A stretch of 64,000 bases of DNA, from contig JASANE010000801.1 in assembly GCA_030248225.1 (NCBI GenBank), positions 47,488 to 111,487 of the forward strand, written 5' to 3'. Position numbers and translations under genes: made by a program. The notes below the pieces were generated by a model. It worked only from the letters and a program-made list of their open reading frames with translations, was not told where the DNA came from and did not search any database. This DNA is from Trileptium ribeirensis (Eukaryota; Nematoda; Enoplea; Enoplida; Thoracostomopsidae). Within the stretch, counting starts at the first letter, position 1. The number at the start of each line of letters is the position of its first letter. Shown here piece after piece: positions 2,941-64,000 of the stretch.

Positions 2941-3977
2941 TGTCTTTACATCTGCCAGAAATTGCTGTACCTTTTAAAAACATAGCTAATGCGTTATTCG
3001 AAAATTTTACGGTATTAGCAAGTTTTGGGGGTCCGGTAGGCTAAAAAGGGTTCCTTGGGTCTAAATTCTGTTAAAAAATTATTTTTGGGTTTTACATAAA
3101 TTGCTACATTTATTGGTCTTTTCCTTTGCGTTCTGTTTTGTTAAATTTTCAACTTCTTAATTTGCAGCTAAGAAGTTTAATTTCATTTTAAGTCTTGTCT
3201 TAGTGTTCGTGAAATTAGGCTGTGTTGCGCAAAGAACTGTGCTTAGATTAATTGTTTTAATTTATCATTGTTTTAATAACCGAGTGGTTACCCAACTAAC
3301 AAGCTACGTGGAGTTTGTCTAGTTATTTGCTGATGTGATATATTACGGGTCGAGTTATGTGGAAGTCATTAAGCTTGTTTATACATACCATGTGAATCTT
3401 TTTGAGTAGTTTACATCGTGGAAAGGCTTAACCTTTTCAATAGCGCAAAAGAATTGCGTTGAGTGGAATTAACCTGGTTTGTAAACGGTGAACCTCTAGA
3501 GTGATAGTGGATATTTTAAGACCTGGAATCGTGAGCGATATAGCGGTAAATATACATGTTATAGTTTTATACATATACATATTATATAAAACAATATGGC
3601 TGGTAATGTATATGCAACTCGAAATGGCCTGTAGTCCATGGCGACCGTTTCACAGATTGTCTTATCGATATTGGCGCTTTGCTGCGGTGTTAACTGAAAT
3701 ATTTGATTTAAAAGTATAACCAAAACGTGCTCTCGGTTGTATTGTTTAGATGTAAATGTGTGACGTTTAACGTATATTCTACTAGTTCAACATCTTATAC
3801 TAGTTTATATATATATATATATATAGGTTCCCACCAAACGTCATTTTGGGACAACGGAAGTCGCAGTTCCGCGTCTAAGCTGATAAACTTAGTAGAAAAT
3901 GTTATATATATACATAAAACGCATATACATTTGATTCAGGTTGTATTGATTCGTAAATAAATAAATAGCATATTACA
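2941..3977 (+). other. Noncoding stretch, probably 5' UTR of the next CR1-type element
   Basis: No protein-like frame is present. The stretch ends directly at the ORF1 start at 3978 and contains a (TA)n microsatellite near 3808-3826. By position, its right part is likely the element's 5' untranslated region and internal promoter. The left boundary of the element is not visible. Confidence 0.35.
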
Positions 3978-4826
3978 ATGCCATTGCTTGCTGATAATGA
4001 TGATCACCGGGAATGTGGCGATCCTGATTGTCGAAATGAAATCACCGATATGGACTCAAAGATCGCTTGTGGAAAATGTAGAAAAGTATTTCATCGAAAA
4101 TGCTCAAAGGTAACCGTCAACAGCATGTTTGCGGATGCCACAAAACCAGACAGCGGACTCAGATGGTTCTGCAGTGTTTGTCGACCTGTTATTGATGATG
4201 ACTTCGCTGTTTTGGTAACGTTGGAGGGTCGTTTAGCTATGTTTGAAAGTCGGCAAGAAAAACTAGAGTCTCTTGTTATCGCCCTATCAGAAAAAATGGA
4301 TGCGTTTGCTTCTGGACTGACCCCCCCGACGACCACAGCCGCGTCTGTCACTGGTGGCATCCGTGAACAATCTGGTGACTTTTCTGTTAATAGTGAGTCT
4401 CAAATTACGTCACGTATTATGTCTGAGATTGATGAGCGTAACAGACGCAAACGTAATATTATCGTTGCTCAAATGGCCGAATCAACTAGCGACTCTACCG
4501 AAGAACGAAAGCAACATGATTTGAATTTTTTCTTGGAATTGGCAGACCACTGCAAATTGAGCATCAAGACAGAAGATGTAGTGTCAATTTTCCGCTTGGG
4601 GAAAAAATCGACCAAGCCCCGTCTCCTTAAAATTGTGCTCAATAACGAAGATTCTCGTAACACCGTAATCGCGGCTGGTCCACAACTCAGAGGTCTTCAG
4701 GAAGACCATAAATTTTATGGCATATTTTTAAACCCCGACAGAACCCCTTTAGAAGTTAAATTGTTTAATGAGATTCGTACGAAACGTAAAAATGCAAGGC
4801 AAACGTCGGGGGACGGTCGGCGTTAA
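3978..4826 (+). CDS. CR1-type retrotransposon ORF1: PHD-finger RNA-binding protein
   Basis: This frame of 282 codons encodes an ORF1 protein, the nucleic-acid-binding partner that packages element RNA. Residues about 12-65 form a PHD-type zinc finger: CGDPDC, CGKCRKVFHRKC and FCSVC supply the C4-H-C3 spacing. A helical, coiled-coil-prone region follows (about 75-110). Then comes an RRM-like/transposase-22-like segment beginning NIIVAQMAES and including VVSIFRLGKK, a motif common to CR1 and L2 ORF1 proteins. The ATG at 3978 lies just before the first zinc ligands. ORF2 starts downstream in another frame. The C-terminus is short and ends in an arginine-rich tail, and the neighbouring frame stays open across 4805-5251, so a small indel may have trimmed the natural end. 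A PHD finger in ORF1 is known for CR1 elements; its histone target here is unknown. Confidence 0.88.
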   Translation: MPLLADNDDHRECGDPDCRNEITDMDSKIACGKCRKVFHRKCSKVTVNSMFADATKPDSGLRWFCSVCRPVIDDDFAVLVTLEGRLAMFESRQEKLESLVIALSEKMDAFASGLTPPTTTAASVTGGIREQSGDFSVNSESQITSRIMSEIDERNRRKRNIIVAQMAESTSDSTEERKQHDLNFFLELADHCKLSIKTEDVVSIFRLGKKSTKPRLLKIVLNNEDSRNTVIAAGPQLRGLQEDHKFYGIFLNPDRTPLEVKLFNEIRTKRKNARQTSGDGRR

Positions 4827-7815
4827 ACAGACCGCCAGTAAATAGTAATTCTGTTTTTTATTTGTCAAACGTTTCTAATGTAAATAGCGTAAATATTTTG
4901 TCTTCTGTTGACAGTTATCATATTTTGCAACGTGGTAGTAATCATTTGTCATGTAAAAATAAAAATAATTTTAATATTTTGCAAGATAGTTCTGAAACTT
5001 TGTCATCGCCGAAGCGAAATAGACGTAAATGTGTTTACAGTTATGGTTATAAATGTGTTTTGATCAACGCGAGATCTATACGTAATAAATTAACTGAACT
5101 TGAGCTTTTTGTTTCCTTGTACAACTACGATGTTGTTTGTGTTACCGAAACTTGGGTAACCGGCATAAATGAAGACAATGAACTTACCATTCCCAACTAT
5201 ACGATTTTTCGGCAAGATAGAAGCGATGACAGACGCGGCGGGGGGTCATGATCCTTGTCAAATCATGTCTTAATGCTATTCCTTCGCGGTTGTTCATCAG
5301 TGTCTGTTTCCAAGACGCTGTCTTTTGTGAGCTTAGAACAAATGGCCGTAAAATTCTAGTGGGATGCCTTTATAGAGCGCCATCATCGGATGCTAACAAC
5401 GACAGTCTCTTACGTTTTCTTTTCAACCTTACTGGCAACAACGATGTCTATTGGGCAGTTTGCCTATGTGGTGATTTCAATATGCCTACAATTGACTGGG
5501 TAAACTTTTCGTGGCTGCCAAAAGATGATGAATTCATGGACTGTATTGTCTCTGGCGGATTTGTACAGCATGTCGAATCGTGTACTCGAGGTACAAACTG
5601 CCTTGATCTAATATTTTCAAATGGTGACAATATTTCAAACGTGGTAACATTAGCACCCCTGGTCTCGTCAGATCATTTAGCTGTTGAGTTTTGTTTGTGT
5701 TACTTATCTCCGTGCGACTATAACACAAACAGGCGAAATGAAGCAATTTATGACTGGGCCCGTGCACCATGGAATCTAATTTGTGACTCTTTGAGAAACA
5801 CCGACTGGTCACTAATATTGGCTACTGAAGATGTTACACGGTCGTGGCAGTCAATGTTAGGAGTGTTTCAAGCAACTATACAGAAATTTGTGAAATTGAA
5901 ATCCAGCAATCAACGACGAAAACCAATTTGGGCGAATGGTGCAGCTTGGAGAGCGCTGAAACAGAAACACAACGCCTTCAGGCGTTTCAAACGTTGCAAT
6001 TCTGCACAAGCTTGGGCGAAATACGAAGAGAAAGCGCTTCTTGCAACTCTTCATTCTAATGAGGCTATAAAATCATACGAGCGCAAGCTTGCAGCAAACA
6101 TTGACTGTGATCGAAAATCATTTTTTAAATATGCGCTCAGCAAACAATCTATCAAGCCAAGTATTGGGCCGATGCGTCGTGATGACGGAATGCTTTGTGA
6201 AACTCCAAAAGACGATAGTGATTTGCTAAATCGCTATTTCGCATCAGTGTTTAACAACACTGTGTTCGAGCCTCCAAATGTTACTAAGCGAACCTGTAAT
6301 CAATTGTCGTTTATCCAATTCAGCTCAAATGAAGTTCTTAACGCATTAAATCAAGTTAAAATAAATGCTTCTCCGGGGCTAGATGGTATCACGAACTTGT
6401 TCCTACATAATAGTAAAAAAGTAATAGCGAAAATTCTAACGAAGCTCTTTAACAATTCCCTCAGTTCTGGTACATTTTTAGACCAATGGAAGGATGCTAA
6501 AATTGTTCCAATTTATAAGAACAAGGGCGACCGTTCCGTGTGTAACAATTATCGCCCGATTAGTTTAACTCCCGCTATTAGTAAAGTTCTGGAATTGTTT
6601 GTTAGAAACAAGCTAATTGACTTTCTTACAGAGAACAAACTCATATACTCTTCACAACACGGCTTTGTAGCACATAAATCTACGACAACGCAACTACTAG
6701 AATACTTAAATTTCGCAACTAAAATAATTGACTCTGGAGACTGGTTGGACGTCGTTTATATTGACTTCTGTAAGGCGTTCGATAAAGTTAATCATGATGC
6801 ACTGTTGTATAAACTTGAACTATACGGTGTCTGTGATACGTTGCTTGATTGGTTTAAAAGCTATTTAAAAGGACGTCGCCAATTTGTCAGTGTAAATGGT
6901 GCCAACAGCGATTGGGAAACTGTGACGAGTGGAGTCCCACAGGGCTCAGTGTTAGGTTACGTAAATGATATTGATGACTATGTGTCGGGTGCTATATATA
7001 AATTTGCTGACGATATTCGCCTAGCTCGCAGAATTACCCGAAAACTGCCTGATATTGGATTTGACGCCCTTCAGCTTGATTTGGACGGTATGTCACACTT
7101 CTGCAATGACTGGTTGATGACTGTGAATAGTGACAAAAGTCATGTGATGCACTGCGGCTTTGATAACCCTAGAGTTGTATATTCGCTGGCTGGTAATATT
7201 CTACAAATTACCGATCAGGAGAAGGATTTAGGAGTGCTTGAATGCAGTAATATGAAATTTTCTGACCATTGTGGTATGGTTGCGAAGCGGGCAATCCGTG
7301 TTGTGTATCTGCTACGGCGTACAATACATCATTGGACAAAACAAATCTGGTTACAATTGTATAGATCGCTCATCAGACCTCATGTTGAGTATGCAATAAA
7401 TGTTTGGTGCCCATACCTGGAAAGGGATATTGTGATGCTTGAGCGCGTTCAACGAGTGGCTACTAAACTGCTGCCGGCAATCCGCAATCTCGATTATCAC
7501 GAACGACTTCGTTTTCTGGGTCTCCAAACTCTTGCCACACGTCGAATACGTAGCGATCTCATTTTAGTATACAAGCTGTTACATGACGATGTTGCACTAG
7601 ACACTGCAAACTTCTTCACTCATGGGTATGCACTTACCAGGGGACACAATATGAAATTGGAAACTCTCGATATTCCCCATCTCGAACTTCGGCGCATTTT
7701 TTTTTCACACAGAGTTGTCAGGGTTTGGAACAGCTTACCCAATAACGTGGTCAACGCCCCGTCATTGTCTTCGTTCAAGTGCCGGTTGCATGCGTCCCAC
7801 TGTTTACCATTGTAA
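4805..7815 (+). pseudogene. CR1-type ORF2: AP endonuclease plus reverse transcriptase, frameshifted and internally deleted
   Basis: ORF2 nicks the target and copies element RNA onto it. The endonuclease begins at INARSIRNK (about 5065) and continues with VTETW, GDFNMP and SSDHLAVEF. The RT follows, with NYRPISLTP, YIDFCKAFDKVNHD, SGVPQGSVLG, the catalytic FADDI (about 6997) and a C-terminal domain ending in RVVRVWNSLPNN. Two lesions are visible. The reading frame shifts at the G run at 5239-5245, splitting the product into 4862-5251 and 5248-7815. Between VPQGSVLG and YVNDID about six residues present in related elements are missing, an in-frame 18-base loss inside the RT core (near 6957). 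Otherwise the 855-codon frame is intact, which points to a fairly recent insertion. The frameshift sits in a homopolymer and could be a sequencing error, but the deletion would not be. Confidence 0.9.
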
Positions 7816-20700: not shown

Positions 20701-23700
20701 AAAAAAACTCTAGAAAAAATATAAATAATCACAAAGAACAGTTGTACTATTTATATCATCTCACAGGAAAACATAAAAAAAATTGTATAATACGGGACGG
20801 GCCGCCCGATCCAACGCCCGACCGAACCAACTAACGCGGCGCGCCCCCCCATATCTCTTACGTTGGGTTTTTTGCTTTTTCCGTTCGGCCCTTGGGGGCG
20901 GACGGAAGGTGGGGGGAGCGGGGGAGAGGAAGAGTCCTGTTTTTCGACTAGAATTCGGGGGGTATTCCGTTTCTCAGGGTTCCCTAAACAGACCATTTCA
21001 GCTAGAGAAGGGGGGGAAACGCTAAATTTTTTTGTAGTACTTTATATACGCGTTAAAAAAAAAAAAACCCCCCGCTTCATCTATTGTTTTTACAAAGAAA
21101 ATAAAATTTATTTTCAAAAAAAATAAAACTAAAGAAATTTGTAATAAGTACTGATTTAATTAATTTTAGGCTCATAGCTTAGAACTTTGGAAATTGAGGC
21201 TTTTGGTTTGTATCTGGGTGGAAATTGCAAAAATTCAAAAAAAATATTGAAAAAACTAGTAGGTTTTATGGAGAGTGTTTATATGAATTTCTTAAATGGT
21301 TCTCCAAAACGGGAGCAAAAAGAGGATGATTAAGAAGTCAAATAATACAAAACTTATAAGAAAACAAACATGACTATAACAAAAGTGAAATATGATATAT
21401 AAATATATCTCTTATACCTAATCCACCCCCCCCCCCTTCCCTATATCGTACCTCCATCGACACCGCCAGCAATACCAAGAGCGAGACAAGGGAGAGCAAA
21501 GATACACGCGGTGACTAGCCGATCCAAGTCGGCAGTGCAATATTGATCGTGGCAAATTCTAAAATTGAAGAAGAGCGAGGCAGAACCAAGGCGGCAGTCA
21601 CAGCTCTGGTAATGCTGGCGAGACATGTAGACGGCGTTTAAAAGTTGCTAGAGATGGAGCAAAAACAACGTCCGGGCCAAGCGAGTTCCAAACACTAACA
21701 GACCTGCATGAAAAGCTGAATCGCTGGAGATTTAGTCTTGGGATGAACTTTGAACGTAATTTTAACTGGTGCCCACGCAAACCTGCATGATCAATAACAT
21801 CGAAGAAATAGGATAGGGAGCAGTCGACGAGGCCATTAGCGAGACGATATATCATAATAAGATCGGCACGTAAGCGGCGAGTTTTTAGAGTTTGCAAACC
21901 AAGACGTCTCAGTCGATCTTCATAAGGAAGATGAGCAAGTAGGTAAACTGATTTCGTCGCTCGCCTCTGTACATCCTCCAACAACTTAATGTCTCGCTGC
22001 AGAAAGGGGGACCAGCAGCACGAAGAATATTCCAGCTTAGAGCGAATGAGACTTTTATAAATTGGAAGGAATGTTGCAGGAGATAGATGAACGAAGCGAC
22101 GACGAATAAGGCGGATGATAATGTCACACTCACGAGCAACCCTACTGCAATGTTCACTCCACTTAAGATTTTGACTAATTGTGATGCCCAAATCTTTTTG
22201 GGAAGCAACATTGGGTATATTTAGCGTATTCATTGAATAACAGTAGTTTGGGTTGTTAAACCCCATGTGAATACACGAAGATTTTTCGCAATTGAAGGTC
22301 ATCTGCCAAGTTGATCCCCAATCCACGATACCATCGATGTCTGATAACATGTCCATTTTAGCTAAAGTAGGGTAGCCCGACAGAACACGACGACACAATT
22401 TAGTATCATCCGCAAATTTGAACAACATACCACTCACATACTCATCAATGTCGTTAATGTAATAGAGGAAGAGCACAGGACCAAGAACAGTACCCTGAGG
22501 TACTCCGCTGGATACAGGGCACCAAGAGCTACAAACGCCATTAACGGACACTGACTGATAACGATTGGTTAAAAATGATCGTATCCACTGCAGAAGTCTA
22601 CCACGGATGCCATATGAATGCAGCTTAAGAAGTAGCCGTTCGTGTGGGACTTTGTCAAAAGCTTTACTTAAGTCGAGATACAATACATCGACGCCATCTT
22701 TAGCATTTAAAATTTCATTTATCCAGTGTATGAATTTCATCAGTTGAAGTTCACAAGAACGGCCTTTTAAAAAGCCAAATTGGGAAGTATGAAATATATT
22801 GTGTGTAGAGGCAAAATCAATCATAGCATTGGCGATAATACGCTCCATTAATCTCGAAACCGAGGAGGTGAGTGACACTGGACGATAATTGCTTACTAGC
22901 TGACGAGACCCGCTTTTGAAGATTGGTATCACAATGGCTTTTAACCAGTCAGAAGGTGAAAAGGAGTTAGACAAACAAGAGGTAAATAATTTAGCAAGAA
23001 ATCCACAAATAACTGGGGCACATTCCTTAAGTAAGCGGTTTGGAATTCTATCGGGGCCGGGGGATGAGCTGGATTTGATTTTAGCGAGTATTTTATCAAC
23101 ACCTGTACTACTAAATGAAACATCTTCCAATGATGCATCAACACATTTCGGTTTATGAGGAAAAGTTTCAATGTTTTCAGTCGTATAAACAGATGCAAAA
23201 GCCAGGCTAAAAGATTGCGTAATAGCTTAATAATCAGAAACAGTATCGCCTGTTGGGCTAATTACAGGACCAATGGCCATGCTACCTTTTTGTTTCCCAT
23301 GTACATAGGCCCAGAAGCTTTTAGGATCTGCTTTGAGGTTGTTAGAAAGCTTGTGCTCAAACTGTCGGCGGGCCCTTGTGCATTCGGAGTGAGCAGTATC
23401 ACGCGCGGCATTATATGCTAATAGGTTGCGAATACATGGGTTGCGTTGAAATCGACGTTGAATAGTAGAAAGATAACGTAAAGAACGCATTGCTCGAAGG
23501 TCGACACAGCAAGGTTTGCTTTTGAAAGGTCTTTGGTGATGAGACATTGTCAGCATATTTAAGGCCGCGTGCATTGCTGTTGCAAAAGCTGACCACATTT
23601 CTTAGGGTCAGAAGACGTACAATCACGTAATAAACGGTTAACACAGTCACGAATACTATCCCAGTTTGCGTGCGCGAAATTTAGCCGAGGTCGTTGAGGA

Positions 23701-26700
23701 TTAACGATATCAGGACGAGACGCATCAAGTCGAAAAGTTATAACAAAATGATCACTTTTGCCTAAACCAGCAACTATATTAATATCACACACGAAGCTTG
23801 GGTTGGAGGAGAAAACTAAGTCAAGTGTGTTTAACCCGCGAGTTGGTGAAGTAACGTGTTGGAACAAACCACATTCAATGATAGCCTCCATAAAGTCATC
23901 ACATCTATAAGTCCATCGATATTCAGACCAAGAAATTTCCGGATAGTTGAAGTCACCAACTAACAGGACTTGGTCATAGCCGTGCGTAGATAAACTGGAT
24001 ACAATATTACATAGTTGGGAATTCAGTTCCGGCGTGTTTGAATGGCCCGATAAGCACAACAAACAAGGCATTTAAAACCTGTTGGAAGAGAAATACAGCA
24101 AGACACAAAATCGGCATATTCAGTACTAATTTGTTGTGGTGTTGACACGGGACACAAACATTGATGTGCAAATATAATGACTCCGCCACCGCGAGAATCG
24201 CGGTCGGAACGAAATAGCAAATAATCAACAAGCGAGAGTTCAGAGTTGCTAATCTCTGCCGTCGCCCATGTCTCTGCCAACATTACCAGCTCTGGACTGC
24301 CATGAGAATATATCATTAATTTTAACAGATTCATTTTATTAATAATACTTCTAGCGTTCAAAAAAAGACATCTAATTTTCCTGTTAGAATTTGAGAAATT
24401 AAGACAACCGTGTTGCCTATATCTGCCAAATCACAAATAGTTTCACAATTATTTTGAATCTTCGATTTGTTATCAAAAACTTGGTCAACACAAATAGCTT
24501 TATCAATGTCAACAGCCCTAGTATAGTTAATATTTGAAACAATATTGGTGTTAATGTTGGATATATTAGGATTACAAAAACTGGATGACGTTATAAAATT
24601 ATTAGCATTATTCGCCCGACAACCGCGTCGGGCCATTAGGCTAAAGGGTGGTTTGAATGTGCACGAGTATTTTTTTCTGCTGGCAATATCTTACCCTTCT
24701 TTAATACAACATTTTCACCCTTCTGTAAAAGGGTGTTGAGTTGCTTTCGTAGTTGGTCATTCTTTTTTTGTTGCTTAGGAGTCAAATCGTAACGAATATA
24801 GCAGCGTTCAAATCCATCCAAATCCTTAAGTAATTTGGATTTGGAAATAACTAAATGACGTTGTGATTCACCATCAAGTATTACCTTAACCGGGCGACAC
24901 TTATCAGAATCATGATTGATTTTGCCAATTCGAAACAATTTCTTAATGCAGTATTGGTCAGCAGTAAGACCCATTGCGGTCATTAGATCAACAACCTTAT
25001 CATGTAACCAGGATGGAGGTGGATTTACATTGCCAGAAAATTCTGATAAACCAAAAACAATAACATTACTTTTACGCATATTTATGTCATTGATCTCGTC
25101 TATCGCCTGCTGAACTTGCTCATACGCGACGGGTTCTCGATTAGATTGTTCAAGTGCAGATAACCGGTTGTCATAATCTTTGCTTTCGAGCAAAGATACG
25201 CGATTATCAATGTCCTTAACTTGTTTAGCAACCTTAACTAATCCACCAAACAGATCGTCGACAATGGAATCGCAATCATTACAAAAGAAACGCACCGGTT
25301 TGTTTGGTGTTAGAATATCTTTGATGGCGCCCGCGGAAGCACCGCTGCAGGATTGATGAAAGTACTTCTTGCAACACCCACATGGTACTTTGACATCATC
25401 TGGAAGGATTTCACGATTGCAGGAAGCCAAGCCACATATATAAGAAGTGTTGAATGAAGAAGATCGACTGCCTCTGGAGCCAGTATTTGAGTGATCCATA
25501 ACAATTGCAGCAGACGATAATTATTTAGCCGGTATAAACAATTTTAAATACCACAGTGGCGTAAATAATATATAGCAAATCTGAATAAATATATGTACAG
25601 GATTTATCGTTGCTGTTACATTTCTGTACTGTAAGGCGTCAAAATAAGTAGCTGTGGCTATTTGGTGAGGCGTAAAATCTTTTCCAAACTTACATTTTTG
25701 GCGGCTTGTAGTTACGCTTTGTACAAAGATTAAATAGGTTGTTCTGAAAAATGTGGTACGGATTCGAGACTTAATCATATCAACTTTGTTGTGTAATCGT
25801 CCCGTAATGTTTCACTGGTGGAATAAGAAAACGTTTTGTGGTGGCGCCTTCTTTGTTGTGAATGTGCCAATGGTTTGGGAGCCAGCAAGCAATTGTATTA
25901 TTGCTGTAGATTAATTTTAGTTATTGATATTGCAGATTACTTACGCGCTACCGTATTATATTCTACTGTCATTTCCCCGATCAACTGCTGACGAAGCGAG
26001 ACGACATGCTCAAACTTCTGTACCGAGTGCCGCTCGATTGGTTCGAAGAGTTCTCGACCGGATTGGCACATACCATATTGGTCAATAGCCGATTTACTGG
26101 TACGTTCTAACTTTTGTAACGAAAGGTACCACTCGATTGGTTCAGAGAGTTCTCGACCGGGTTGGTACGTACCATATTGGTCAATGGCCGATTTACTGCT
26201 ACGTTCTAACTTTTGTAATGAGAGATGCCGCTCGATTGGTTCGAAGAGATTTCGACCGGGTTGGAACATACCATATTAGTCAATAGCTGATTTACAGGCA
26301 CGTTCTAACTTTTGTAACGAAAGGTACCACTCGATTGGTTCCGAGAGTTCTCAATCGGGTTGGTACATACCATATTGGTCAGTAGCCGATTTACTGGTAC
26401 GTTCTAACTTTTGTAACGAAAGGTACCACTCGATTGGTTCGAAGAGATTTCGACCGGTTTAACACATACCATATTGGTCAATAGCTGATTACGAGTACGG
26501 TACGTTCTAGCGATTACTGAGCTCATATTTAATGCAACTCGAGCGTGACCGGTTGGTTTTATCGCTGTCACACATATCTCGATATGGATTTTGGAATTTA
26601 GTTTGATGGGAGCACAGTCGCGAGAGGTTAAAGTAGACATTTTTTCTAGTAGGCCTTAATATTATCAATAATCGATGATAGTCAATTCTTCTGAAAAGTG

Positions 26701-29700: not shown

Positions 29701-30275
29701 GCATTGACTGAAAAGGTATCTGCTATACAACGAACTGAAATGTATAGCTGCTCTGTCGAAATAGTTTAGCCGCAATAGTTTAATATTTCGCTTTTTTATA
29801 GCTGTTTAACCACTTATTGTTTTGTATTTGTTATTAATGATTAGATCACGTGACCTTCGTTCGTTCGTGTTCGTCACCGGCCAAACGGGCCCTCCTCGCA
29901 CGGTGCCTATGTCTCGTGTACACGCCAGCACACGAGCATTTCGGGATTGTCCCGTTGGAAGCAATGCTTGCATCGCGACCGGTCATCGCAGTCAATTCCG
30001 GTGGCCCGTTGGAAACCGTAGTCAACAACAAAACCGGATATTTGGTGCCCCCCGAGTCGAATGCGTTCGCCGAAGCGATTGCGCGGCTGGTCAAAGACCC
30101 GGTTCTTGTAAAACGGCTTGGTGATGCGGGTAGTCACCGCGTGAGACAGTGCTTTAGCTACAGCGAGTTTTCGCGACACTTAGATGATATTGTGACGGGG
30201 CGAGAGGAAGAAATTGAGATTGAAGGCTTGGGACGCGGTGAAACTGTTGAAGATATCCAAAGAACTGTCGAATAA
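17678..30275 (+). CDS. ALG2: Alpha-1,3/1,6-mannosyltransferase ALG2 (split gene, one internal segment not located)
   Basis: ALG2 adds the second and third mannoses (alpha-1,3 and alpha-1,6) to dolichol-linked chitobiose-mannose on the cytosolic face of the ER, using GDP-mannose. The located coding exons are 17678-17765, 18786-18875, 25936-26099, 27158-27445, 28364-28504 and 29845-30275. All have AG/GT borders and compatible phases except for one gap. Family landmarks are [13 protein letters not shown] at the N-terminus, [55 protein letters not shown] and the GT4 EX7E motif in [11 protein letters not shown]. The block between exons 2 and 3 (about 50 residues, with DWLPR and CDQ-type motifs in homologues) was not found. 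An antisense CR1 element occupies that intron. The gene may be intact with diverged or tiny exons, or damaged. The identification is firm; completeness is not. Confidence 0.92.
17922..18200. repeat. Tandem repeat in ALG2 intron 1, about 119-125 bp unit
   Basis: The block starting TTGTTATGACGTTATATTGC at 17922 recurs at 18041 with only a few mismatches. A partial third copy starts at 18166 (preceded by AGCAAGGCC like copy 2). The unit contains no coding sequence. Confidence 0.85.
18786..18875 (+). CDS. ALG2: ALG2 exon 2
   Basis: Acceptor TTTTAG|GACATTC and donor ATAG|GTAAGT; phase 1 in and out. It encodes [20 protein letters not shown] and then DGTLRVTPI. This corresponds to the 'HDPxHCFxET' region of ALG2 proteins and follows exon 1 in frame. 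Confidence 0.92.
18876..21429. other. ALG2 intron sequence
   Basis: Should contain the missing ALG2 coding block but no convincing exon was found. It holds dispersed repeat copy 2 (20025-20185) and a GC-rich patch at 20795-20960 with C and G tracts. A strong acceptor (TTCCTTTCAG at 20471-20480) precedes a short frame ending ELADAVVC, which is discussed among the rejected items. Confidence 0.5.
20025..20185 (+). repeat. Dispersed repeat, copy 2
   Basis: Same-orientation relative of 16500-16660, sharing GAGCTATCGTGC, CCCAGCC and CACCCTAAAAGC in order. It lies inside an ALG2 intron. Confidence 0.65.
21598..24636 (-). pseudogene. CR1-type ORF2: AP endonuclease and reverse transcriptase with three frameshifts and one stop
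   Basis: The start codon at 24636 overlaps the ORF1 stop as TAATG. A short leader is followed by the endonuclease: NARSIINK and LAETW (24023-24361), [10 protein letters not shown] and KSDHFVITF (23559-24071). The linker and RT follow in one frame (23598-21598), with [42 protein letters not shown], the catalytic FADDTK and a C-terminal domain ending in [10 protein letters not shown]. Frame changes lie near 24385, 24050 and 23590, and an in-frame stop sits at about 23227. The RT core itself is undamaged over 510 codons. The element is therefore inactive but not old. It belongs to the same PHD-ORF1 group as the element at 4-8 kb. Confidence 0.92.
24636..25499 (-). CDS. CR1-type ORF1: PHD-finger protein, intact
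   Basis: An uninterrupted frame of 287 codons. Residues about 20-75 form a PHD finger ([31 protein letters not shown]). A coiled coil follows, with heptad-like repeats ([28 protein letters not shown]). Then comes an RRM-like/transposase-22-like domain starting [10 protein letters not shown], with IKKLFRIGK, and a basic tail rich in Q, K and R ([15 protein letters not shown]). The protein would bind element RNA as a multimer; the PHD finger may read histone marks. The stop TAA overlaps the ORF2 ATG by one base (24636). The start is the first ATG before the zinc ligands. Confidence 0.9.
   Translation of the reverse strand: MDHSNTGSRGSRSSSFNTSYICGLASCNREILPDDVKVPCGCCKKYFHQSCSGASAGAIKDILTPNKPVRFFCNDCDSIVDDLFGGLVKVAKQVKDIDNRVSLLESKDYDNRLSALEQSNREPVAYEQVQQAIDEINDINMRKSNVIVFGLSEFSGNVNPPPSWLHDKVVDLMTAMGLTADQYCIKKLFRIGKINHDSDKCRPVKVILDGESQRHLVISKSKLLKDLDGFERCYIRYDLTPKQQKKNDQLRKQLNTLLQKGENVVLKKGKILPAEKNTRAHSNHPLA
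25791..25935 (+). other. ALG2 intron end
   Basis: Short intron remainder between the CR1-type element and the FYCHFPD exon. It ends in the acceptor TGATATTGCAG. No exon could be supported here. Confidence 0.5.
25936..26099 (+). CDS. ALG2: ALG2 exon with the FYCHFPD block
   Basis: Acceptor TATTGCAG|ATTACTT and donor ATTTACTG|GTACGT; phase 2 in and phase 1 out. It encodes [20 protein letters not shown], then [20 protein letters not shown] and ILVNSRFT. All of this aligns with the central part of ALG2, the end of the N-terminal Rossmann-like domain. The 3' 67 bases and the first intron bases form the first unit of the 99-bp array. Confidence 0.92.
26033..26510 (+). repeat. 99-bp tandem array derived from the ALG2 exon 3' end and its splice donor
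   Basis: Units begin with CTCGATTGG at 26033, 26132, 26231, 26330 and 26429, an exact 99-base period (33 codons); the last unit is partial. Unit 1 contains the true exon end and donor ACTG|GTACGT plus 32 intron bases. Later units repeat both parts with point changes. The donor GT is lost in units 2 (CT) and 3 (GC) and kept in unit 4. Each unit has TAA stops just after the donor position in the exon frame, so read-through of the array cannot extend the protein. Confidence 0.93.
26511..27157 (+). other. ALG2 intron
   Basis: Noncoding. It ends in TGTTACAG, the acceptor for the next exon. No repeat of note was seen apart from the array at its start. Confidence 0.5.
27158..27445 (+). CDS. ALG2: ALG2 exon with the [11 protein letters not shown] block
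   Basis: Acceptor TTACAG|CCTCAA and donor TTTGG|GTGAGT; phase 1 in and out. It encodes [20 protein letters not shown], a variable acidic and serine-rich stretch of about 45 residues ([15 protein letters not shown]), and the conserved [20 protein letters not shown]. The last block is the start of the C-terminal GT-B domain that binds GDP-mannose. The acidic stretch is longer than the equivalent linker in vertebrate ALG2. Confidence 0.93.
28364..28504 (+). CDS. ALG2: ALG2 exon with the VVAGGYD block
   Basis: Acceptor TTTGCAG|CGCTCC and donor AAAAG|GTAAGT; phase 1 in and out. It encodes [19 protein letters not shown] and then [18 protein letters not shown], the ALG2 segment that links the two conserved C-terminal blocks. 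Confidence 0.93.
29845..30275 (+). CDS. ALG2: ALG2 last exon (EX7E motif, stop)
   Basis: Acceptor GATTAG|ATCACG, phase 1 in, stop TAA at 30273-30275. It encodes [19 protein letters not shown], then [16 protein letters not shown] with the GT4 EX7E pair, and [13 protein letters not shown], which lies at the nucleotide-sugar site. The tail is hydrophilic and glutamate-rich with no membrane segment. Its GC content is clearly higher than that of the other exons and the surrounding introns. Confidence 0.94.
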
Positions 30276-38108: not shown

Positions 38109-41100
38109 TATGACCGAGGTAAAGCAGAGAGGCGGTGTTAGGGCCGTTGTCAAACGGGAAGTACATAAAGTAAATGATATCTTAGCTGGTGATTTGTCTG
38201 CGCGTCTAACTGAAGCTAAGGTGTCGTTGGCAAAACTATCCAACTACAAAGTGAGCTCTTGATTACAAAATTTTGAATTCATTTGATCCGGAAACGCAGG
38301 AAAAGGCTCAGACAACAGAAATTGAACAGACTGCGCTGCACATTGATCAGTTAATTGAAATAATTGCGAAGCTTTCTATTGAAATAGCTACTGCAGAATC
38401 TGCAGTTCCATCGAATTTGAACCAATTTGCGAGTGACGCTTCCTTTAGAACAATCAAACTGTTCCAAGAAGCAACAGCTGCGCCTGCCTAAGTTGGAGAT
38501 AAGCCAATTTGACGGTGATCCGCTATCGTGGCAAAGTTTTCGGGATTCGTTTGAGATTGCGTTTCACAAGAATGAATCATTGTCGAACATTGATTGTTTC
38601 AATAATTATTTGAAGGGTTTTTGTCGGGGGAGGCTACTCGGGTCATTGATGGGTACAGATTGACTTCGGCAAATTAAACAGTAGGAATAGAGACGTTAAC
38701 GGAGAGATTCGGTAAAAAGCAATGAGCTATTTTCGTGCACATCGAAACACTTTTGGCAATACCGAAGTCGACGCACCAGATCGAAAAGTTGCAGCGTACG
38801 TCAGATGATTGTGAGAAACATTCGTTCGCTTGTCGCTCTTGGTGTTTCAGAAGACACGTTCGGTCAATTTTTCGCTCCCATTATGCTGTCCAAACTGCCT
38901 CAGTTCGTAAAGATTGAGCTTTATCGAAAGAATGGTAACAATGAATGGTCTCTCGAGAATATTCGAGCTTGGCTGAAAGACGAAATCCACGCAAGAGAGA
39001 TGGGAAAATCGACATCCACGAAAGAAAGTTCGTCATCAAAGGTTGAAAATATTAAGCCAAAAACGAAGTTTAGCACAGCATCGGCGCTAGTTTCAAACGT
39101 AACGCCTAAGAAGAGCTGCACATATTGTGGTGAAAACGATTTAGGCGATACTTGTCTCAAAGTTTCCACCGTCGCCGCACGAAGGTCGTTTTGTCATTAG
39201 CACAGTCATTGTTTCAGCTGCCTTGGTTCCGGTCATGGGTCCCGTGTTTCTCGAAGATCTGCGTGATATCCTGCTTCGATTTCGATTGAATAAAGTGGGA
39301 ATCGTTGGTGATATCGAAAAGGCGTTTCACGGAATCGGTTTACAAAAATCGCAACGAGACGTCACGTGGTTCCTGTGGGTTCGGGATTCTAGTCGACCAC
39401 CAGTTGGTCACAACTTGATTATGTATCGCTTCAAGAGAGTTGAGCCCGTTTCTGCTAGGCGCGACTATCACACATCACTTGCAAAGGATAGGAAGCGATA
39501 TAGCTGACGCTATTTTGAACAATCTGTACGTTGATAACGTGATCATCACTGTGAACGACACACATGCAGCGCTGACGTTTTACGAAAAAGTCAAACAGCT
39601 TTTCAACTCTGCGTCGTTAAATCTTCGCGAATGGTATAGCAACGATAGTTCTGTCCTGGCTAGAATTCCGGTCGTTGATAGGAGTAGCGGTGCTACGCCA
39701 AAGGTCCTCGGTTTAAATTGGAACGTAAAAACGGACAGACTCGATTGTCCCGCCGGTCGCATTGATTCTGTAGAGCTTTTACGTTATAACTATTTATTGC
39801 GACAAAGCCAACTGTGCAAAACGAAACATAAGTGGAACAATGACAACAACAACGGCATTGACAAAAGTCACATGAACACATATATGCGTGTCAAATATGC
39901 AAATCAACTTGTCATAGCCACGCTTTTCTCGTGCGCGGCTACAGATTCATAGCTCAATACGCCTTTAACAAAGCGTCACGTCTTGTGCACGCTTTCTCGT
40001 ATTTTTGACCCATGTGGGTTGCTTTCGCCAGTTACAGTTGTTGGGAAACTGATGTTTCAGGATTTGTGGAAGCTGAACCTCGGCTGGGATGATCCGGTGC
40101 CCGAAAACGCCAAACTTCGCTGGAACAAACTAGTTCCTGAGTTGAATAGTATATCGGAATTCGATATACCCCGTTACGTTGGGTTTGATGTCACTGCGGG
40201 TTGTCAACTCCATGCCTTCTGCGACGCGTCAACTCGTTCATATGCAGCGGCAATATACATTCGCAGCATGAAGTAACCGGTGAAAATCTGTCTCGTTTTC
40301 GCCAAAACTCGATTAGCGCCACACAAACAATCTTTAAAAGTTCCAACACGACTAGAACTTATTGCGGTATGTATTGAGTTAGATTGATCGCGTTTGTTGA
40401 AGAAAAGATTGGTGTTCCGGTGCGTGATAAGTTTCTGTGGACTGATTCTCAATGCTCGCTGCACTGGTTAAACCGGAATTATGTCCCCACACCTTTCGTT
40501 GAAAACTGCTTGAAGATTATTCGTCAACATCGTCAAATTAGCTTTTGTCTCGTCAATTCTAACAGTAATCCTTCCTTACCACACTGAATAATTTGATTGC
40601 GAACACTCAGTGGTGGGAAGGTCCGGCTTGGTTGAGAAAAGACGAAAACCATTGGCCAAGTGCCTCTAGTGTTCAAATTCCGAATTCGTCTGAATCAGAC
40701 GATCACATAGAATGTGATGCTGTCTTAATAGCCGCAACGCAAGACTCATGCCTGAAATTTACCGACTACTCGAGCCTAGTTCGGTTACTTCGAGTGACAG
40801 CTTGGAGATTCGTGGATATTTGTGGAAAGAAACGTGCTGTTAACCAAGCGCCCGTAGACAGTTCTGAAATTTGCAAAGCCACCGAATACTGGATTCGACA
40901 AACACAACGAAGCGAATTTGCTGATTTTTGGTATGATTCTCGGGAGAACAAAAACGGGATTTATTCAAACAGTTGCACGCATTCGAAGATTCGGATGGTG
41001 TTCTCCGATGTGGGGTCGCATTGCAAACGCTAACTTACCATATGATTCCGTTTATGCGATCCTGCTCCCAAAACATCACCATTTTACCAAGTTGTTAATC

Positions 41101-60437: not shown

Positions 60438-61088
60438 CTAAAATCCTTGTAGTGTTCTGATGTTTTATCCCAGGCGAAATAAAGCTGTAACGATGTATTA
60501 TCGTGGGAACTATTCCGGTGGGAATATACAAGCATTGCGTCATCTGTTTATCATGTGTGTATTCATGTATGTGTCGTGTAATTTATTCCCCTCATACATT
60601 CATTACATTCATGTGTTTATGACGGCATAATTTATGTGTAATTGTTGGTTTGTTTATTACATGTGGTTCGTGTATAGTACGTGTAACTATGCATATGTGA
60701 TGCAAGTGTGTGTAATTGTTTGTTCATTGCGTGTGAGTCGTGTGTATTGCCAGAAAATTGCAATAGTTTTTGAGATAGAATTTTCCCAGCACATTTCAAC
60801 AGAATTTTTAAGAACTACAGAAATGGAATTAAAGTGGACAGGGGGATGGTTTGGCCATATGCGGATTTTGATTCGAAATGCCATAGGGCACGTTGTAGAT
60901 TATACATACCAAATTTGGCATCATTTGGCCCACCCGTTAAGGAGTTACGGACCTCATCCCCTCTGCAATTTCTGGTCCTAATAATTTTGCTAATTCTTGT
61001 AATTATTAAGATTAAGAGAGTGTAAAACAATTAAAAATTGTAAAATTTGTGTGTCAAGGCTGTGGTTTACTTACCTATCGGATTTGAG
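60438..61088. other. Probable ACAP intron upstream of the LTR element
   Basis: No exon is recognised. A TG-rich, ATGTGT-type low-complexity stretch runs from about 60540 to 60750. Confidence 0.4.
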
Positions 61089-61366
61089 TGTAAGCCCTGG
61101 GTGCCTTAAGTATTACACTTACATTAGCGGAAATGTAAGTGTATTTCTGCTGGATTTTCCAAAATTTTGTTTTGAGTTAGGGATTCCGAGAATTTTATAA
61201 AAAGATATTCTCTAACGCGCAAATTTTCGTTTAAGTTTGGGAGCGGATTTCTCAATTCCAAGAATTTCTAATTCTTAAATGTGTAAACCTCGCTTTAGAG
61301 AAATTCCCAGGTTTCTGGTCCGGGATAAAAGTTTATTTAAGCTCACGCGCGCTAAGCTTAGGCAAT

Positions 61367-61373
61367 TCAGTTC
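61367..61373 (+). promoter_or_regulatory. LTR initiator (TCAGTTC)
   Basis: An arthropod-style initiator sequence with a TATA-like TTTATTTAAG centred about 30 bases upstream. It is the predicted transcription start and U3/R border. Confidence 0.5.
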
Positions 61374-61498
61374 ATTACAATCGGTGATCAAAGTGGTGCA
61401 ACATTTGTGTGTACTATCAATCGGTGCTATTGCTATACTATTGTGAACGTAAGTATATTTTCTTATATATCTATATGTTCATTGTATGTGAGAAGTGT

Positions 61499-61504
61499 AA
61501 TAAA
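61499..61504 (+). terminator. LTR polyadenylation signal AATAAA
   Basis: A canonical hexamer about 130 bases after the predicted start, where R should end. Confidence 0.6.
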
Positions 61505-61652
61505 ATTTTGGGTGGAGATTGTGGCTTCGGATATTTCACATTTGTCTTAGAAGCTAAGACAACTCCTGAACCATCGTTGGGCCTTAGTCTACTGTACGAC
61601 CCCGCTCTACGAATACAATTACTTTACGCTAGGACTCACGCGGGCTACATTT

Positions 61653-61670
61653 TGGTGCCGCAAGCCTGGA
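61653..61670 (+). other. Putative primer binding site
   Basis: Begins with TGGTGCCGCAAGCC three bases after the LTR end. TGG matches the complement of a tRNA CCA end. The specific tRNA was not identified. Confidence 0.55.
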
Positions 61671-61690
61671 CGAGGAAGTCTTAAGCATAA

Positions 61691-64000
61691 GAACTTAGGA
61701 AATATAATCTGGATTCTGAGACTTATATTGAAAAAGCTTATCGTCGATATACAGGTGGTCCACGTGAGTCGAAATCTAAGATAAATAAGTTAGTTCTGGA
61801 AGCGATGCCAAATTCAACAGTAGCTACTCCCGGGGGTTCCCAACCTGTTGCTGCAACCTCGGGGGGTTATCAATCCGATCACCGCCTTATTCCGAGTCAG
61901 TATGGTTATAGGTCTATCGAGATTAAAAATATACCCCTCTATGCGGGAAATTTCGGGGACGATTTTGAGGAATGGCTAAGCACCTTTGAGAGAATTGCAT
62001 TGGCCAACGAGTGGGACCATACTGAGATGGCCCGATTATTACCTGCATATTTACGGGATGAAGCAGCGCGCAAGTGGGAGTCCATCCCCCCTGGCATACA
62101 GAAAAATTACAGTATGGTACGGCAGTCGCTTAAAGAGTACCTAATAACTAAGGAAACTGCTAATCAATATAGCATTCAACTGCGGACGAGAAGCCAAGGG
62201 CCGAATGAGCCCGTGGAAATTTATGCACGAGATATAGAGCGCTTAGTGAGGAAGGCTTATCCAACCATTGAGGGGGACAGTAGAGATCGACTTGCTATGG
62301 ACAACTTTCTGAATGGGCTCAAGGGCTCTATCAAGAGGTTTGTCATGACGTCAAATCCTACTTCTATGCAGGCAGCCATTTCGAGAGCATGTGAGCAAGA
62401 GTGCTATGAGAGGATGGACCAGCCTTCCCATTTAAGTAACTCTAGAATGGAAGCTATGTTTACTGATGCTAAGAAAATGGAGTTTCCTAATGTTTTGGAG
62501 AGAAAAATGGATGATATGCTAAGGGTAAATAGGGAATTGCTTCAAGCCGTAGTCAGTCTTAAGGACAACAACAATAACAATTTTCGCAACAACTTTGATC
62601 AAAATCGAAATAGGATGACAAACGACGGTCGAAAAATCTGTGATTTCTGTAGAAGGCCAGGTCATATAAAATTCAATTGCCCGCAACGGCGTCAAAACTT
62701 TTCTCAAAATAGATCTATGCAAAATTTAAATAGATGGCCACCAAATCGAGCTCCTCAGCCCTTCTGGCGTCCGAGTAATTTTCAAGGTAATAATCAACAG
62801 AGACCGGAACCGAACAGGTGGCAAAATATTTCCCCTCAGTTGAATCAATGTCAGGGCAATGGGGGAAGCCAATCCCGATGTAATGATGAGCGCCAAATAT
62901 CAAATCGTTGGATGGATATGGAGCAAACGAATGACTGGAAAGCCGAAGTTTTGCGACTTAGGGAGCAAAACGAAAGGTTAGCTAATAGGATTATGGAATC
63001 TGATACCACGCCCAAATCACCGCACTCTGCTATGATGTGCCATTTCCGAAACCGTGGGGCGGAGAACCGGGGATATACTATATTTGTAGAGATGACATAT
63101 TATGATAACCAAATCGATCTACCGAGCCGAGAGTGTCTGACTCAAGATATAAGTAAGGAAAATTTATGTGATACGACCAAAATTTATGAGTACCCGTACA
63201 GTGCCAAGTTAATAAATTACAGGAAATACGGTGTTTATAATTTAATTTATGATCAGGTAGTTTTACACTGCATTGACCTGAATCACTTGAATAATCAAAT
63301 TAGGAATATTGAATTCACCACATTTATTTTATATTACAGAAGAATGTGCGACAATCCTTTGGCAGTCCCCGTGGTTGCCGGGCGAGGTGCGGCGAATGGA
63401 GGTGTACCCCCAGGTCCATGTTGGGCTCCTCGTAGGGCCTACCCAGAGCGGAAAACCATATGTCCGGGTGAAAAACATCGGGCCATCGTCGAAGCAGCGG
63501 AGGACCCGAGGTGCATTTGGGTGTCTTTGACAAAAGAAAAGTGTTACATGGATCTGATAAATGCCTGCATCCCTTATGTGGACGAACTCCTCGTCTTACG
63601 AGAAGACGAAATTTGGACGAAAAAGCGTGTGGTCGTTGTTATGGCAGGCCAGCCTCTACGCGGGGAAGTTATAGGTATTCCATCACCGCGACAATACAAC
63701 GTTTGGCTGGTAGACGTTGGAAGGGGGAATTTATGCGATATTGACGAAGTATATGAAATGCCGCGTCATCCGGTATTGGTCAATACACCCCCTCAGTGTT
63801 TTCGAGTAGAGCTGAGTAACATTATGCCACCTCATGGGCGAATGGAGTTTGGCTCGTATTCGTTTAGTTTACTCCAGCGTCTGGTGAATCAGGAGGTTTT
63901 TCTGAATTTTGTTGGGTTGGCGACCCGCGATTCTTTTGTCGTAGAAATGACACTAGGGCTGCGATACGGCGTAAGCGAAATGCTTGTTGCTCACGGTCAG
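61691..64000 (+). CDS. Gag-zinc knuckle-Tudor polyprotein of an LTR retrotransposon (open at window edge)
   Basis: The frame is open from the stop at 61688 to the last base. The likely start is ATG at 61805, giving at least 732 residues. Residues about 42-200 are a retrotransposon Gag/capsid domain (IPLYAGNF...FEEWLSTFERIA, YARDIERLVRKAYP). A CX2CX4HX4C zinc knuckle follows at 279-292 (CDFCRRPGHIKFNC) for RNA binding, then an N/Q/R-rich stretch and a coiled coil at about 370-400 (WKAEVLRLREQNERLANRI). A linker leads to an extended Tudor domain from about 558: a preceding strand-helix part (AIVEAAEDPRCIWVSLTKEK), the Tudor barrel at about 605-670 (YNVWLVDVGRGNLCDIDEVY, VNTPPQCFRVELSNI) and the SN-like continuation. 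No protease or RT is reached before the edge. The frame has no stop or frameshift, so it looks young. A domesticated host gene is the alternative, but the LTR argues against it. Confidence 0.88.

Follow-up and report, generated by a model that had tools for sequence, protein, structure and literature searches.

Sequence analysis of a Ty3-type LTR retroelement family with a Tudor-Cys/His-NADAR cassette in the nematode Trileptium ribeirensis

What use does a retroelement have for an extended Tudor domain placed in frame behind its Gag? The question is raised by the right end of a 64,000-nucleotide stretch of the Trileptium ribeirensis genome (assembly GCA_030248225.1, contig JASANE010000801.1, positions 47,488 to 111,487 of the forward strand), here called the window, where a long terminal repeat (LTR) retroelement runs into the contig end. 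An earlier note on this DNA had described an LTR retrotransposon whose Gag carries an extended Tudor domain, and had suggested that the domain binds methylated arginines of PIWI proteins and thereby serves entry into germ granules or interference with piRNA silencing. Comparison with relatives in the same genome bears out the retroelement and its Tudor domain. The phrase "Gag carries Tudor" is correct in that the domain is in frame with Gag, but it is incomplete, since the Tudor domain opens a cassette of Tudor domain, Cys/His module and NADAR domain that lies behind a splice-acceptor-like site and has its own ATG.

The window copy occupies an open frame on the + strand (61691..64000, first ATG at 61805) that covers Gag, a linker and the Tudor domain. 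The frame comprises 770 codons with zero stops and continues past the window edge. None of 5000 Markov shuffles of this interval stayed open, which rules out a chance open frame. The contig ends exactly where the window ends, so that nothing beyond 64000 is readable for this copy. In relatives, the Tudor domain is followed by the Cys/His module, NADAR, protease (PR), reverse transcriptase (RT), RNase H (RH), integrase (IN) and an env-like open reading frame (ORF). The position of NADAR is past the window edge, out of view for the earlier note. Five copies were read piecewise, on contigs C16411, C1847, C9184, C18068 and C9860. Pieces of the C9860 copy matched RVT_1 (6e-34), RT_RNaseH (7e-41), Integrase_H2C2 (3e-19), rve (4e-7, just below the cut-off) and Integrase_p58_C (2e-8), in this order, which corresponds to a PR-RT-RH-IN arrangement. 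A DTG protease motif is located upstream of RT in all five copies, with a weak Pfam protease match (0.029). The third ORF, 3' of pol, is longer than 260 codons in four of the five copies and truncated in C9860. As judged by eye, its ends are hydrophobic and a further hydrophobic stretch comes after a basic site; no Pfam family was found in the two pieces scanned.

A search of the genome with the Tudor region yielded 153 matches, fragments and split matches included, with 150 of 243 candidates scored. The longest open frame among these matches has 2405 codons, and 29 of the 30 fetched places lack a stop inside the match. The RT search, in which 131 of 6289 candidates were scored, returned 74 sequences at ≥64% identity and 57 at 49-54%. 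Identity between pairs of copies reaches 99.8% over 2.6 kb, indicating that some of the copying is recent. Judged by these sequence features, the locus belongs to a Ty3-type LTR retroelement family that has many copies, some of them recent, and is not a single domesticated gene. A domesticated host gene, which a single-copy locus would have pointed to, is ruled out by the many copies, the pol genes and the LTRs. The pol genes expected downstream are present in relatives, and both LTRs were found in one of the five copies (C1847).

The extended-Tudor domain of the window (63344..63998, + strand, core approximately 63476-63820) starts at its own ATG. It was assigned from Pfam TUDOR matches in copies, from the Drosophila Tudor structure 4q5w and from a comparison of cage residues, by which the aromatic cage is lost (LRG..WLVDVGRGN). 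When scored alone against Pfam TUDOR, the window domain reached 19.4 to 22.0 bits, just short of the cut-off of 23, while its relatives L076, L077 and L078 exceeded it (37.2, 35.4 and 34.1 bits). The family was matched by 17/17 aligned copies (best E-value 2.6e-6), with no other family at E 0.1. The profile of the element Tudor domains also matched Drosophila Tudor 4q5w (E 0.0011) over the Tudor core and the N-terminal flank. Of the two putative SN-like flanks, the N-terminal one was aligned to 4q5w; the C-terminal one is conserved without a match. Database searches with the Tudor region and with the Tudor-NADAR region found no relative, and viral contigs yielded none. The motif DVGR is invariant in all 17 element Tudor domains.

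Four aromatic positions, which we take to be those of the methyl-arginine cage, are replaced in 7/7 element Tudor domains and retained in 4/4 host Tudor repeats in a MAFFT alignment. The Y/F before the turn is M, I or V, the Y of YR is L, the Y of FYVD is L and the aromatic residue of DYG is V. In view of these replacements, the methyl-arginine binding proposed earlier is not supported. Comparison of Tudor pairs gave a dN/dS of ~0.065, from the 4 of 78 pairs that were unsaturated.

Downstream of the Tudor domain, the Cys/His module has the invariant residues C41, C44, C69, C72, H74 and H78 in nine aligned copies (the alignment excluded L012 and L008), and the pattern CxxC..CxxCxHxxxH is kept in 9/11 translated copies. 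Neither a convincing Pfam family nor a solved structure was found for this module (best E 0.019, ribosomal mL38). The NADAR assignment is strong. Its profile was matched by 12/12 aligned copies at E ≤0.01, with a best value of 2.1e-28 and 88.0 bits for the first member (cut-off 35.1). Pieces of C9860 and C16411 gave E-values of 4.9e-24 and 1e-27. Among Protein Data Bank (PDB) structures, the element NADAR matched NADAR 8bau (5.6e-14) and YbiA 2b3w (1.9e-5).

The catalytic residues of the E. coli C7 NADAR are described as E88, K95 and D171 (PMC11543638). In the element NADARs, the Glu is retained in 12/12 sequences and the Lys seven residues later is Q or E in 12/12, according to an ungapped alignment. 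When HMMER places a one-residue gap, the Lys position is occupied by C; K is found in neither alignment. Of 30 other NADARs fetched from the genome, 27 include the site, and all of these have the Lys; the remaining 3 do not reach it. A dN/dS of ~0.15 was obtained from the usable NADAR pairs (15/55). Both folds thus appear to be under purifying selection while key residues are lost, from which it follows that the usual chemistry of the two domains is probably not kept.

Gag and the cassette are joined by a hypervariable, AT-rich linker that is open in frame (63052..63343, + strand). It was delimited by a gap in blastn similarity: between the window and its relatives, similarity (73-91%) stops at ≤63051 and restarts at 63398-63480 in L006, L011, L016, L020 and L022. 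One relative, L030, has the same linker as the window. The GC content of the linker is 0.35-0.39 in the 16 copies measured; in the window it drops as low as 0.30. According to shuffles, a single open frame through 63141-63342 has a chance of 0.0035. At the end of the linker, a 3' splice-site-like sequence, TTATTTTATATTACAG (63324..63339, + strand), lies 4 nt upstream of the in-frame ATG and was recognised by the recurrence of a YAG-ATG motif. A pyrimidine tract with YAG-N(2-4)-in-frame ATG was found in 12 of 14 linker-distinct lineages, defined as sharing under a quarter of 10-mers in the linker, compared to 0.29 expected from shuffles. In 16/29 copies, an open frame connects the coiled-coil motif at the end of Gag with the Tudor domain; the rest show stops, an altered motif or a cut at the locus edge. 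The linker resembles the 3' part of an intron, yet it is open in these 16 copies, and both an intron and a coding reading are kept on the sequence evidence. The recurrent acceptor-like motif with its ATG predicts that Tudor-NADAR-Pol is also made from spliced RNA; the open linker in many copies makes a Gag-Pol fusion possible as well.

A candidate splice donor, GTAAGT (61449..61454, + strand), is located in the LTR/leader and recurs among LTRs. It was observed 132-206 nt upstream of the U5 end or the primer-binding site (PBS) in 5/7 LTRs, namely those of the window, C16411 and C18068 and both of C1847.

Sister elements show what else can occupy the position that the cassette has between Gag and protease. 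In sister L095 (C56:14518-16600), a match to the fusion-glycoprotein family PF24664 (6.7e-8) and a hydrophobic segment are located in the same frame, followed by protease/RT. A second sister, on C7014, has a hydrophobic stretch without a Pfam family ahead of the protease. Neither Tudor nor NADAR was found in the ~2 kb before the RT of these two sisters. Cargo in the slot ahead of the protease hence varies among the lineages read. The list of TUDOR matches contains no contig of the 57 RT relatives at 49-54% identity, but weak element copies, that of the window among them, are absent from it too. A high-copy family (C7014, C11613, C13831, C15157 and others) has identical RT scores and single frames of up to 4741 codons.

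Most of the Tudor domain is gone in a sublineage represented by C11797, C5158, C16327 and C16802 (L094, L097, L098 and L099). The acceptor-like site is kept in this sublineage, and the ATG has changed to ACG in 4/4 copies examined. The C11797 copy (L094), which was read to the RT, has kept NADAR (1.8e-23) and lost the Cys/His module.

A genome-wide TUDOR search, with 101/101 candidates scored, gave 53 matches, many of them element copies. Multi-Tudor frames of the host were found at C12796:66596-70747 (1560 codons, 6 matches) and C4711:5801-8548 (1476 codons, 3 matches). Of 32 candidates scored in a search for Piwi domains, 26 matched; they are spread over 12 contigs. Eleven Piwi-domain exons (on 11 of the 12 contigs, 11 of the 26 matches) look like members of the Argonaute clade, five by comparison with solved structures and six by eye. 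One of them, L092, is divergent and favours Argonaute (3.5e-10) over Siwi (2.6e-7) by a modest margin. A PIWI-clade exon was not seen among the 11 examined, the other 15 of the 26 matches, including contig C5121, being outside the sample and the assembly possibly incomplete. Two contigs carry cellular RNA-dependent RNA polymerase (RdRP), with 11 of 13 scored candidates matching. Some nematodes silence via RdRP and Argonaute rather than via piRNA. The findings fit a host with such invertebrate silencing by RdRP and Argonaute, which argues against a PIWI partner for the element Tudor domain without settling the matter.

The NADAR search of the genome gave 2317 candidates, and 150/150 scored passed the cut-off. 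Among the neighbours of three other NADARs, two Pox_A32-type ATPases (6e-6, above the cut-off, and 7e-5, at it) and one superfamily 1-type helicase match (AAA_12, 1e-28; L074) were found. Pox_A32-type ATPases occur in Polinton-like elements. Several further fetched NADAR loci (L046-L075) look similar by eye.

How is the cassette likely to work? The account we prefer, and to which we give about even weight, is that of an element with Tudor-Cys/His-NADAR ahead of Pol, in which the cassette is predicted to enter particles together with Pol and to dock on host RNA-protein complexes, without reading methyl-arginine or hydrolysing ADP-ribose. Translation of unspliced RNA would yield Gag and, where it continues across the open linker, a Gag-Tudor-NADAR-Pol fusion. 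Splicing that joins the leader donor to the acceptor site (63339) would give Tudor-NADAR-Pol starting from the ATG at 63344 and would set the Gag:Pol ratio. The cassette would then be freed by the element protease. By analogy with Krimper eTud1 and unmethylated Ago3, the cage-less Tudor domain would most likely bind unmodified peptides of host granule proteins; entry into germ granules through another Tudor surface is possible. The most likely ligands of NADAR would be ADP-ribosylated nucleic acid or NAD-like molecules, bound but not turned over normally.

Both the strong NADAR fold and the active-site Glu kept in 12/12 sequences could also speak for an active counter-defence enzyme, whose NADAR strips host-added ADP-ribose from element nucleic acid with the Tudor domain as targeting arm. 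NADARs are described as hydrolysing guanine-linked ADP-ribose (PMC11543638, PMC11125620), and other NADARs of the genome, some of which adjoin mobile-element genes, keep the Lys. In the element, however, the equivalent of K95 is Q or E in every sequence, or C with the HMMER gap, and we consider an active enzyme rather unlikely. The loss of functional residues in both domains despite purifying selection would equally suit a purely structural cassette, which would be a Gag-Pol spacer or an assembly part with no host partner. Such a role agrees with the other material in the same slot of two sisters and with the finding that the Tudor domain can be lost. Whole folds with DVGR in 17/17 copies and CxxC..CxxCxHxxxH in 9/11 exceed the needs of a spacer, though, which leaves a merely structural part doubtful.

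Least probable is the proposal of the earlier note that methylated PIWI proteins are the targets of the Tudor domain, for germ-granule entry or for blocking of piRNAs. It can draw on the extended-Tudor fold and on the existence of host multi-Tudor frames. The loss of all four cage positions in 7/7 domains, together with the Argonaute-like appearance of 11/11 examined Piwi-domain exons (of 26 matches; L092 divergent) and the presence of cellular RdRP, makes methyl-arginine docking on PIWI proteins and interference with piRNAs highly improbable. A broader and quite speculative proposal, which we regard as improbable, combines several of the observations: the slot between Gag and protease of these env-carrying elements would be a splice-served site at which functions are swapped (glycoprotein-like versus Tudor-NADAR), and the repeated acquisition of NADAR by mobile elements not related to each other (LTR, Polinton-like and helicase-linked) would reveal an ADP-ribosylation defence, met here by a catalytically silent NADAR acting as shield or decoy.

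Several observations weigh against the preferred account of a docking cassette made from spliced and unspliced RNA. With regard to the Tudor domain, the cage Asn is Arg in the MAFFT alignment, while HMMER aligns an Asn after a two-residue insertion, so that its retention is possible. A single-sequence structure model was uninformative (pLDDT 35), and host-granule binding by the domain is something that we infer. In the Tudor-loss sublineage, long open frames and several copies indicate that Tudor is dispensable there. With regard to the other parts of the cassette, a shifted NADAR active site could retain catalysis, and the Cys/His module is damaged in two of the 11 translated copies (Arg replaces one Cys in L012, and a part is missing in L008). 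Most dS values are saturated, for Tudor and NADAR pairs alike. With regard to splicing, the two exceptions among the 14 linker-distinct lineages are L004, in which the ATG is more distant from the YAG, and L029, in which the motif is lost. The YAG-ATG rule was formulated after the sequences had been inspected, and the motif also encodes a recurrent Arg-x-Met, so that protein constraint could contribute to its conservation. GTAAGT was absent from the LTRs of C9184 and C9860, two of the seven examined.

The remaining features of the window copy are those of an ordinary LTR retroelement. The 5' LTR (60492..61649, + strand) was delimited by blastn against the flanks of copies; its 3' end is ..GGGCTACA, its left part is diverged or truncated, and its true left edge lies at ≤60492. 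A start at 61089 had been proposed, but similarity extends to the left of this position in the 5' flanks of 4/5 fetched copies and in one 3' LTR. It begins at 60492 in C16411 and C1847, at 60499 in C9184, at 60831 in C9860 and at 61098 in C18068. The right end at 61649 and the PBS-like sequence TTTTGGTGCCGCAAGCCTGG immediately 3' of it (61650..61669, + strand) were as described before. This sequence recurs among copies, being exact in C16411, C1847 and C9184, present as its core in C18068 and with one change in C9860. AATAAAA (61499..61505, + strand) is a putative polyadenylation signal, read from the sequence alone. The complete LTR of approximately 1.3 kb spans TGTGAAGCTGGG to GGGCTACA in the C1847 copy, whose 5' and 3' LTRs share 83% identity across 1198 aligned positions (~1.2 kb). 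For an open copy this is a low value, perhaps caused by recombination. For the other four of the five copies read, a 3' LTR was not found within the fetched stretch.

The Gag capsid region (residues 60-340; 61868..62710, + strand) shows 73-91% DNA similarity to relatives in the genome. P0001 was its sole database relative among 661 candidates (E 7e-18, 31% identity, 59% of the region covered). A CCHC zinc knuckle of the form CX2CX4HX4C (62639..62680, + strand) was read from the sequence; its Pfam zf-CCHC score is 14.1 bits, under the cut-off of 20.8. The Gag module is closed by the conserved sequence EVLRLREQNERLANRI (62945..62992, + strand), which is kept in copies and is coiled-coil-like by eye. 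The unbroken frame noted before stands with its Gag, its knuckle as read from the sequence and its Tudor domain, the coiled coil being a judgement by eye alone. The window Gag is closest to that of L012 (90.9% DNA identity), while the two Tudor domains share 70% protein identity, which suggests an exchange of Gag and Tudor-Pol modules.

Elsewhere in the window, non-LTR retrotransposons with RT (RVT_1) were observed at 493-2100, 3969-7815 and 21598-25520, one of which has a PHD-like finger (just below the cut-off) and an endonuclease. Fragments at 38700-41033 resemble a BEL/Pao-type element by eye, and a glycosyltransferase group 1 gene is represented by an exon at 29841-30275 (6.5e-23). Scanning the window for Rfam families and for tRNAs gave no hits.

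Taken together, a single LTR retroelement joins two host-interaction folds, and no PIWI-clade gene was seen among the exons of its host that were examined. Both folds appear to be selected for their shape and yet have lost the residues that define their jobs, which raises the question of what retroelements use Tudor and NADAR domains for beyond methyl-arginine or ADP-ribose chemistry. Natural comparisons are offered by lineages that have or lack Tudor and by sisters with other cargo in the slot. The abundant NADARs of the genome, some of them next to mobile-element genes, are a hint that animal hosts and mobile DNA are engaged in an ADP-ribose-based conflict.

The element is an ordinary Ty3-type replication core combined with a cassette that was not found described in the open-access literature searched. 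Neither an element with both domains nor a Tudor domain between Gag and protease was found in that literature. Errantivirus-type Ty3/mdg4 elements have LTRs, gag, pol and an env-like third ORF. The family described here shares these features and differs from them by the Tudor-Cys/His-NADAR cassette, by the recurrent acceptor and ATG ahead of it and by env-like pieces without a Pfam family. Foamy viruses make Pol from its own spliced mRNA. Production of Pol apart from Gag by splicing is likewise predicted here, whereas here many copies have an open linker, which makes a Gag-Pol fusion possible too.

Among elements with one of the two domains, a Gypsy lineage of the brown alga Ectocarpus is described with a YbiA-family NADAR at the N-terminus of Pol (PMC12477816). 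Compared by description alone, it is alike in being Ty3/gypsy and in having NADAR on the N-terminal side of Pol; it comes from a brown alga, and no Tudor domain is reported alongside in the text available to us. The same source describes Gypsy-10_Ec32 of Ectocarpus, a Gypsy element with a C-terminal Tudor domain that is, to the knowledge of its authors, the first transposable element reported with such a domain. There, the Tudor domain is discussed as a chromatin reader, whereas in the present family it is located between Gag and protease, is of the extended type, has lost its cage and is joined to NADAR. ORF1 of a Tx1 LINE of the oyster Crassostrea carries NADAR as well (PMC12477816); this is also an animal retrotransposon, but of the non-LTR type, and its description in the available text mentions no Tudor domain. 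NADAR is furthermore listed in phages and in DNA and RNA viruses (PMC9503650).

Host proteins offer parallels for the altered binding sites. Krimper eTud1, an extended Tudor domain without a full cage, is described as binding an unmethylated PIWI peptide, that of Ago3 (PMC8249470). It resembles the element domain in having a non-canonical pocket in place of the full aromatic cage; it belongs to a host piRNA protein and lacks three of the four aromatics, whereas all four are missing in the element. For Vreteno eTD1, a second pocket able to bind partners is described (PMC10711660). The nematode RNA-processing protein SNA-3 has a first NADAR without the conserved residues (PMC9303266), as does the NADAR of the element with respect to its Lys. 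SNA-3 is a host trans-splicing protein with three NADARs and, in the text available, no reported Tudor domain, while the element combines a single NADAR with a Tudor domain in one cassette ahead of Pol.

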